Part shown: in pieces, positions 36,298-38,641 of the stretch
Numbering within the stretch: position 1 is the stretch's first letter
How the letters are laid out: each line of letters begins with the position of its first letter
Assembly (NCBI RefSeq): GCF_900166655.1
Contig: NZ_FVZB01000007.1
Location: forward strand, 868,001-932,000
Source of the DNA: Halobacillus hunanensis
GTDB taxonomy: Bacteria > Bacillota > Bacilli > Bacillales > Halobacillaceae
Direction: 5' to 3'
Length of the DNA stretch: 64,000 nucleotides
Notes under the pieces: generated by a model
What the model saw: only the letters and a program-made list of their open reading frames with translations
Database searches by the model: none
Told to the model about the DNA's origin: nothing
Position numbers and translations under genes: made by a program

Positions 36298-37446
36298 ATG
36301 AGAATTATTGTAGCAGGGGGAGACGGGTTCTGTGGTTGGCCAACCGCATTGTACCTATCCAAACAAGGACATGATGTAACGATTGTCGATAACTTGGTAC
36401 GCAGAAAGATTGATGATGAGTTGAAATCTAATTCTGTAACACCAATTGCCACATTAGAAGAACGAGTAGCAAAATGGAAAGAACTGACCGGAAAAGAGAT
36501 TCAAACGTTTATCGGGGATCTCAATCATTACGATTTTCTTCGTGAAGTATTCCGCCAGACAAATCCTGATGCTTTCGTACATTTTGCTGAGCAGCGTTCA
36601 GCCCCATACTCTATGATTGACCGTGAACACGCCGTTTACACGCAGTCAAATAATGTAATCGGGAACCTAAACGTCCTTTATGCGATTAAAGAATTTGCTC
36701 CAGAATGTCACCTCATTAAGTTAGGAACAATGGGAGAGTATGGTACACCGAACATTGATATAGAAGAAGGATACATTGAAATCGAACACAAAGGACGGAA
36801 AGATTTGCTTCCTTATCCGAAGCAGCCTGGTTCGTTCTACCATTTATCCAAAGTACATGATAGCCATAATATCATGTTTGCTTGTAAAATCTGGGGTATC
36901 CGTGCAACTGACTTAAACCAAGGTGTTGTTTATGGATTACATACAGATGAAACGAAAATGGACCCTGCACTTGCGAACCGCGTCGATTATGATGGGGTAT
37001 ACGGAACAGCTTTAAATCGTTTTATTAATCAAGCTGCAATTGGTCATGATATTACGGTATATGGCAGCGGCGGACAAACACGTGCCTTTTTAAATATTGA
37101 AGATACCGTGCGTTGTGTGGAAATTGCTGCAGAGAATCCGGCAGACCAGGGCGAATTTCGTGTATTTAACCAATTTACAGAATGGTTCTCCGTTAATGAT
37201 CTGGCTGAGAGAGTTCAGAAGATCGCTAAAGAAGAGGGACTTAACACGCAAGTTAAAAAGATTGAAAACCCTCGTATTGAAGCGGAAGAGCATTATTATA
37301 ATGCAGTAAACACGAAGCTTCGTGATCTTGGTCTGGAACCGCATCTGCTTACAGATGATGTAATTCGCGATATTTTACAGGTGGCTGTGGATAATAAAGA
37401 CCGTATTATTGAAGAGAATGTTTTACCATCTATAACTTGGAAGTAA
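36298..37446 (+). CDS. sqdB: UDP-sulfoquinovose synthase
   Basis: The 382-residue short-chain dehydrogenase/epimerase-fold enzyme makes UDP-sulfoquinovose from UDP-glucose and sulfite, giving the head group of the sulfolipid SQDG. The NAD motif is GGDGFCGW, and long stretches agree with plant SQD1 and bacterial SqdB as I know them: [57 protein letters not shown]. Catalytic residues align as Thr144, Tyr181 and Lys185. The similarity is well beyond generic epimerases. sqdX follows after 13 bases. Confidence 0.95.
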
Positions 37447-37459
37447 GGAGTTAACTGCT

Positions 37460-38623
37460 TTGAAAATCGCCATCATAACAGAGACATTTTTGCCATCAAC
37501 GGATGGAGTCGTAACAAGACTGAAGGAAGCAATCAAATATTTGCGCAAACAAGATCACGACGTTATTGTTATTGCTCCAGACCTGGGTGTAACAGAATAT
37601 GAGGGTGCGATTGTCGAGGGCGTGAAGACGACGACAATGCCTTTTTATCGTTCGAAAAAGTTTTCAATGCCGCAAAAAAAAGTGAAGAGTCTCCTTCAAA
37701 AGCATAATCCTGATTTAGTTCACGTCGTCAATCCTGCGTTTGTTGGAGCTGCGGGGGTCTACTATGCCAGCAAGCTGAACTACCCTTTACTTGCTTCTTA
37801 TCATACGCATGTGCCTAAGTATTTAAATTATTATCGACTATACCCATTTGTCCCGGCAGTATGGTGGTATTTTCGAAAGCTGCACAACTTCGCAGATTTG
37901 AATTTATGCACTTCGAAGGCAATTCAAGGTGAACTACACGAGAAAAACTTTCACAATGTCCATGTATGGGACAGGGGTGTTGCCATTGATCATTACCACC
38001 CCCATCACAAAAATGGAGCAATGCGGGAACGGCTTTCCGGCGGTGAAGCAAGCAACAAACTTCTTGTGTTCGTTGGAAGATTGGCACCGGAAAAGGAAAT
38101 TGAAAAGATCAAACCACTTCTTGAAGAACGCGATGACTTGTCCCTTGCTATTGTAGGCGATGGTCCGAATAGAGAAACACTTGAGAAAACATTCGCGGGT
38201 ACAAACACCGTTTTTACTGGTTTACTCCATGGTGATGAATTGGCTCAAGCTTTCGCTTCTTCTGATGCCTTAATATTTCCATCCGTGACGGAAACGCTTG
38301 GACTTGTGATATTAGAATCGATGGCGTCCGGATTGCCAGTCATTGCAGCGAAGAGCGGACCGACAATGGAACAGGTTGAAGATGGACGTACAGGGCTATT
38401 ATTTGAAAATGAAAACACAGCTAGTATGATCGCAGCAGTCGATCGTTTAGAAGATGAACAGCTATATCAGTATTTGAGCGAGAACGCCAGAAAAGAAGCA
38501 GAAAAACACAGCTGGCAAAAACCAGCCAAGCAAATTCTCAACTATTATTATCAAACATTAGAGGTTTACCAGCAAAACCAGGCAAAACCAACAAAAAAAT
38601 CAAAGGTTAAAGTCACAGAGTAA
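37460..38623 (+). CDS. sqdX: SQDG synthase-type glycosyltransferase
   Basis: A 387-residue GT4-family, GT-B-fold glycosyltransferase resembling SqdX/SQD2, which transfers sulfoquinovose from the UDP-sugar to diacylglycerol at the membrane. It begins IAIITETFLPSTDGVVTRL and has the GT4 donor-site motifs VFVGRLAPEKEIE, VGDGPNRETLE and FPSVTETLGLVILESMASG. Start is TTG 37460, nine bases after AAGGAG. Direct linkage to sqdB fixes the function better than sequence alone; a mannosyl- or glucosyltransferase is the alternative. The C-terminus is lysine-rich, suiting membrane association. Confidence 0.88.
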   Translation: MKIAIITETFLPSTDGVVTRLKEAIKYLRKQDHDVIVIAPDLGVTEYEGAIVEGVKTTTMPFYRSKKFSMPQKKVKSLLQKHNPDLVHVVNPAFVGAAGVYYASKLNYPLLASYHTHVPKYLNYYRLYPFVPAVWWYFRKLHNFADLNLCTSKAIQGELHEKNFHNVHVWDRGVAIDHYHPHHKNGAMRERLSGGEASNKLLVFVGRLAPEKEIEKIKPLLEERDDLSLAIVGDGPNRETLEKTFAGTNTVFTGLLHGDELAQAFASSDALIFPSVTETLGLVILESMASGLPVIAAKSGPTMEQVEDGRTGLLFENENTASMIAAVDRLEDEQLYQYLSENARKEAEKHSWQKPAKQILNYYYQTLEVYQQNQAKPTKKSKVKVTE

Positions 38624-38641
38624 AGGCTCTGTGACTTTTTC
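38610..38641 (+). terminator. Rho-independent terminator of the sqdB-sqdX operon
   Basis: AAGTCACAGAG pairs with CTCTGTGACTT around TAAAGG and includes the sqdX stop codon; TTTTTC follows. Confidence 0.93.

Follow-up and report, generated by a model that had tools for sequence, protein, structure and literature searches.

The window analysed here, a stretch of 64,000 nucleotides from Halobacillus hunanensis (contig NZ_FVZB01000007.1, positions 868,001 to 932,000), contains a two-gene operon that very probably makes sulfoquinovosyl diacylglycerol (SQDG) via the UDP-sulfoquinovose synthase SqdB and a glycosyltransferase of SqdX type. Homology, gene linkage and co-occurrence give strong support to the enzyme assignment and hence to SQDG as the predicted product. 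In the non-photosynthetic Halobacillus-type family the sulfolipid genes belong to the core and are no exception. SqdB was found in all 44 family genomes. The canonical form (84-100% identity) is present in 41 of them, each time with the glycosyltransferase gene adjacent, which makes the operon a core trait of Halobacillus and its kin; three genomes have only a SqdB form with 47-48% identity. The operon is already known in kind from the precedents of Bacillus coahuilensis and Halobacillus halophilus. Less expected is that in some relatives sqdB appears to have been swapped for a distant version while sqdX was kept.

Gene organisation and enzyme identity

The gene sqdB (36298..37446, forward strand) encodes a protein of 382 amino acids and has an ATG start. 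After a gap of 13 bases (37447-37459) it is followed on the same strand by the sqdX-like GT4 glycosyltransferase gene (37460..38623, 387 amino acids, TTG start); a GGAG stretch is located immediately 3' of the sqdB stop codon, ahead of this TTG. An intrinsic terminator with a 13-bp stem (38609..38638, forward strand) overlaps the glycosyltransferase stop codon. The terminator region of 51 bases folds with -22.5 kcal/mol (z -6.1), and none of 200 shuffles was equally stable. Both open reading frames, the short gap and the shared terminator agree with the original prediction, which had also placed the operon in a spore former devoid of photosynthesis genes. The genome is in line with this description: Spo0A was found, and a whole-genome search gave no match to Photo_RC, the sole photosynthesis family searched, which was detected in the control Synechococcus elongatus. 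The divergent flank is formed by an acetate/acyl-CoA ligase-like gene on the reverse strand (34025..35980) outside the pathway. Of 41 family loci, 20 had such a gene near the operon (within the fetched stretch, which in 30 of the 41 covered a 1.5 kb flank only); it is a frequent family neighbour with no pathway role.

The two genes are predicted to form a single transcription unit for SQDG synthesis. SqdB would convert UDP-glucose and sulfite to UDP-sulfoquinovose, and the GT4 enzyme would transfer the sulfoquinovose to diacylglycerol, the probable acceptor. The product would be an anionic, phosphorus-free membrane lipid, possibly used beside or instead of phosphatidylglycerol in the saline habitat. 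Within the Halobacillus family the operon was presumably inherited vertically.

SqdB shares 65% identity with Arabidopsis SQD1, which was also its best sequence match in the PDB (1qrr/1i24; residues 2-382, E ~3e-174, 583 bits). The next enzyme kind in this search scored 41 bits, a difference that excludes chance. The protein has the SDR domain PF01370 and, as an extended SDR, combines the nucleotide-binding motif GGDGFCGW with the Thr, Tyr-xxx-Lys set. The full UDP-sulfoquinovose synthase signature that had been predicted, Thr144, Tyr181, Lys185 and the [14 protein letters not shown] block (from G146), was present in all its parts. T144, Y181 and K185, which we take to be the catalytic residues, were invariant together with G7, G8, D9 and G10, the presumed roles of residues and motifs being general knowledge; the alignment of nine rows comprised the window SqdB, seven further SqdB proteins from the same order and SQD1 of Arabidopsis. 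The NCBIfam model UDPsulfquin_syn (NF041015) gave 495 bits for the window SqdB against a cut-off of 575, which is a naming threshold and no property of the enzyme. A cyanobacterial SqdB also remained below it (471 bits), and only one of 14 control genomes passed.

The second enzyme contains the GT4 domains PF13439 and PF00534 and an E-x7-E motif (ETLGLVILE, E278 and E286), to which we assign the meaning it presumably has in GT4 enzymes. Named loci were compared within the best 80 of 577 confirmed sqdB loci. Among these, 24 of the 36 cyanobacterial loci carry downstream of sqdB a glycosyltransferase with 44-48% identity to that of the window (319-367 bits). The SqdX label of these cyanobacterial proteins is our assumption from gene position and general knowledge. 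The remaining 12 cyanobacterial loci had no such gene within the fetched stretch, some of them ending at contig ends. In the Bacillota loci of the same best 80 of 577, the glycosyltransferase gene is located directly downstream of sqdB in 27 of 29 cases; in L145 it lies upstream, and at L094 the fetched stretch contains no such gene. Three other GT4 proteins of the window genome matched the window enzyme with at most 70 bits. The likeness to the 24 cyanobacterial proteins and the distance from the PIM mannosyltransferases, considered below, bear out the SqdX type that had been proposed for this enzyme.

In phylogenetic trees, the window glycosyltransferase was placed among those of sqdB-bearing genomes. 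A grouping of 44 glycosyltransferases from such genomes against six other GT4 proteins was not rejected (p-AU 0.68), which is no proof of a clade. The free tree search did not separate three of the six other GT4 proteins from the sqdB-linked ones; the long-branched Tsukamurella glycosyltransferase and a second glycosyltransferase family (L166, L167) fell among the latter.

Alternative readings and known systems

UDP-sulfoquinovose could be made in H. hunanensis and then be transferred by the GT4 enzyme to an acceptor other than diacylglycerol, such as phosphatidylglycerol, a glycolipid anchor or a wall polymer. The acceptor is unreadable from the sequence, and the top NCBIfam model for the glycosyltransferase is GlcNAc-phosphatidylglycerol synthase (NF053787); a SqdX-named model was not among the 25 listed of 47 matching models. 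However, this model also ranked first, with similar scores (168 and 154 bits), for two cyanobacterial sqdB-adjacent glycosyltransferases; the window enzyme reached 170 bits and thereby stayed below the equivalog cut-off of 480. The sqdB-linked proteins of a Halobacillus and an Alicyclobacillus scored 167 and 142 bits with this model, the Tsukamurella protein 131 bits and a second glycosyltransferase of a Halobacillus genome, not linked to sqdB, 179 bits. As controls score alike with the NCBIfam models for SqdB and for the glycosyltransferase, these models do not decide identity. The 44-48% identity to the 24 cyanobacterial proteins (best 80 of 577 loci) and the sulfolipids reported in PMC4744853 for B. 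coahuilensis, a carrier of sqd1 and sqdX, argue further against a different acceptor, which we regard as improbable. Still less credible is a GT4 enzyme of PIM mannosyltransferase-like or general glycolipid function combined with a SqdB that acts in a polysaccharide pathway, a reading to which we give next to no weight. The fold family GT4 is broad, the PDB search also returned PimA and PimB', and SqdB-like genes occur among other sugar genes in some plasmid records. Yet PimA and PimB' matched with 54 bits (query residues 198-365) and 38 bits (186-360), neither being a clear full-length match, in contrast to the 319-367 bits of the 24 cyanobacterial sqdB-linked proteins (best 80 of 577), and the glycosyltransferase gene co-occurs near-perfectly with sqdB. 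The synthesis of SQDG is also favoured by the retention of the glycosyltransferase whichever SqdB kind is present.

A recent acquisition of the operon from cyanobacteria by this organism would be compatible with the 63-68% identity between the window SqdB and cyanobacterial SqdB (best 80 of 577 loci), compared with approximately 45% to alpha-proteobacterial SqdB. It is contradicted by the same arrangement in 41 of 44 family genomes and by a quick SqdB tree, in which a Bacillota-rich group of 44 rows (Bacillales, Paenibacillaceae, Desulfosporosinus and two Dermabacteraceae; SH-aLRT 98) stands apart from a cyanobacterial group of 39 rows (SH-aLRT 90). Alicyclobacillus rows fell outside both groups; the archaeal and Rhizobium rows were very long-branched, and their placement and the root were disregarded. 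A recent transfer is therefore highly improbable, while an earlier transfer from cyanobacteria may have taken place. As a separate observation, the actinomycetotal Brachybacterium and Dermabacter (L092, L093) possess sqdB-glycosyltransferase pairs with SqdB proteins 71-72% identical to that of the window; their grouping with Bacillota rows suggests an inter-phylum transfer.

The two-gene pathway to SQDG is best known from plants and cyanobacteria, and both enzymes, SqdB/SQD1 and SqdX/SQD2, are common to these organisms and the window. Gene order and strand are the same as in the window in 24 of 36 cyanobacterial loci (best 80 of 577); in those 24 the genes are separated by approximately 100-1340 bases, whereas the window has a gap of 13 bases and a shared terminator. 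Unlike cyanobacteria and plants, the window organism has Spo0A and no Photo_RC.

B. coahuilensis, a moderately halophilic Bacillus, has the same two genes as the window, and its three strains are all reported to contain membrane sulfolipids, as 'data not shown' (PMC4744853). The membrane sulfolipids of this species are restated in PMC2890564 and PMC4700252; all three papers cite Alcaraz 2008. In these sources the genes were ascribed to the low-phosphorus habitat, whereas the window operon belongs to the core of an entire family. Within this family, a sulfoglycolipid of H. halophilus was described (Lopalco 2013, as cited in PMC6158405), and the operon of a genome labelled H. halophilus (L072) has 91% SqdB and 80% glycosyltransferase identity to that of the window (best 80 of 577 loci). 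Two SqdB clades are distinguished in PMC6946739 and PMC8227023, one comprising green plants with some of the cyanobacteria, the other alpha-proteobacteria, red algae and other cyanobacteria. The alpha-proteobacterial SqdB belongs to the same enzyme family as the window protein, and a SqdB of such type takes the place of the canonical form in 21 of the 89 genomes with sqdB in the order sample. In Sinorhizobium meliloti and Marinovum, sqdB is followed by genes annotated as glycosyl transferase and Glycogenin-1; the window glycosyltransferase matches neither. General literature searches yielded no paper with SQDG genes in Bacillota as its subject.

Distribution and replacement of sqdB

The order was sampled evenly with 397 genomes, and the four best candidates per genome were scored; sqdB was found in 89 genomes (31 of 135 genera) and sqdX likewise in 89, three of which had two copies. 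Both genes were present in 88 genomes, sqdB alone and sqdX alone in one each and neither in 307 (Fisher p 1e-86, kinship ignored). The genome with sqdB and no sqdX (G145) is a draft given as 6% contaminated, and its match is partial and near a contig start; the reverse case is G068. Further carriers among the matches listed are Pontibacillus, Salinicoccus, Gracilibacillus, Oceanobacillus, Planococcus, Marinococcus, Pseudalkalibacillus, Paenibacillus, Alicyclobacillus and Desulfosporosinus. The suggestion of a surprise in a non-photosynthetic spore former does not hold for genes that are family-wide, occur in other Bacillota and have precedents in print.

The sqdB genes of the order sample were of two kinds: 68 of 89 encode the canonical form (72-100% identity), 21 of 89 a distant form (46-49%). 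Where the distant form is the sole SqdB, sqdX is present in every genome (21 of 21). No second SqdB match at E 1e-60 was observed in the 89 genomes among the four best candidates per genome, and none of the 44 family genomes, for which all candidates were scored, had both kinds together. Eight distant SqdB proteins from Bacillales, seven of the 21 and that of genome G016 of the family, were included in a tree and grouped with those of Marinovum and Sinorhizobium (SH-aLRT 98); the other 14 were typed by identity alone. The G016 protein shares 66% identity with the Marinovum SqdB and 63% with that of Sinorhizobium. Both sqdB kinds occur within each of the families f1, f14, f35 and f36. In f36, eight of nine sqdB-bearing genomes have a distant sqdB that is not directly beside sqdX; in G078, for example, the two loci (L171 and L178) are approximately 33 kb apart. 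Only G199 of this family has a canonical pair; Pontibacillus litoralis (L073) has the identical SqdB.

The three family genomes with the distant form only, G016, G017 and G019, belong to the Halobacillus genus group (slot loci L168, L170 and L169, respectively; also L031-L033). Their gene order is CoA ligase, flotillin-like gene and sqdX, with canonical sqdB absent. The named Halobacillus loci L070 and L071 show the same order with sqdB between the flotillin-like gene and sqdX; the third named Halobacillus locus, L072, is without a flotillin-like gene. G017 retains a coding scar ahead of sqdX, namely the final codons of canonical sqdB (VLPLITWK-stop). The alpha-type sqdB of the three genomes is located on the same contig, hundreds of kilobases away. 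Their glycosyltransferases group together (97/91) and then with that of H. halophilus (98/86). The vacated slot suggests a natural replacement of sqdB, which would imply that the glycosyltransferase depends on the SqdB product. For the halophilic Bacillales in general we moderately favour a constant need for SQDG, under which the first enzyme was replaced several times by alpha-type SqdB and the second was kept. A search of the open-access literature with few terms found no report of such a replacement. If this reading is true, SQDG would be close to indispensable in these non-photosynthetic bacteria. The same sqdX combined with two alternative sqdB lineages offers a natural experiment on the role of the lipid outside photosynthesis, be it salt tolerance, phosphate saving or both.

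Similar open reading frames with a shared YFDGDGCIY motif were observed in the window (50984-51520, reverse strand) and in L168 (86-721, forward strand). By eye they resemble LAGLIDADG homing endonucleases, and each appears to be near a citrate synthase-like gene.

Upstream element and physiological role

A promoter-like element, TTGTTT-17-TAAAGT with a TG one base before the second hexamer, is located upstream of sqdB (36129..36158, forward strand). It may work as a promoter; the 16 promoter-like sites that promoter prediction listed did not include it. The element could be aligned in the window and seven genus relatives, and its strict pattern precedes sqdB at 27 of 41 family loci. In all three family genomes without canonical sqdB the strict pattern was found upstream of sqdX, at a distance of 103-164 bases. 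It was absent before the alpha-type sqdB (0 of 8 genes), before sqdX in three other genomes with alpha-type sqdB (L171, L172, L174) and before canonical sqdB outside the family (0 of 92 loci). The 4-Mb genome of the window organism contains one match to the strict pattern (control 0); this leaves no second target, and a regulon shared via the element was rejected.

Two proposals on regulation and stress found no support. The osmoprotectant transporter that had been said to accompany the operon (17737-20360) is located approximately 16 kb upstream with 11 gene-sized open reading frames in between, and a salt link drawn from it was discarded as the transporter lies outside the transcription unit. 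Phosphate control via PhoP was likewise set aside after the 350 bases preceding sqdB had been scanned at 82 loci, with certain genomes represented twice. With the pattern that we take to be the PhoP consensus (TT[ATC]ACA direct repeats, 11-base period, three hexamers), the mean best score was 13.1 of 18 (maximum 15; window 13); 200 simple two-base block shuffles, for which 20 of these loci served as the source, averaged 12.8 (maximum 15). Inspection of the upstream region by eye gave nothing convincing for a sigma-B-like site. A role of the lipid in adaptation to salt or phosphate limitation is conceivable. Many of the named carriers are halophiles, others are not.
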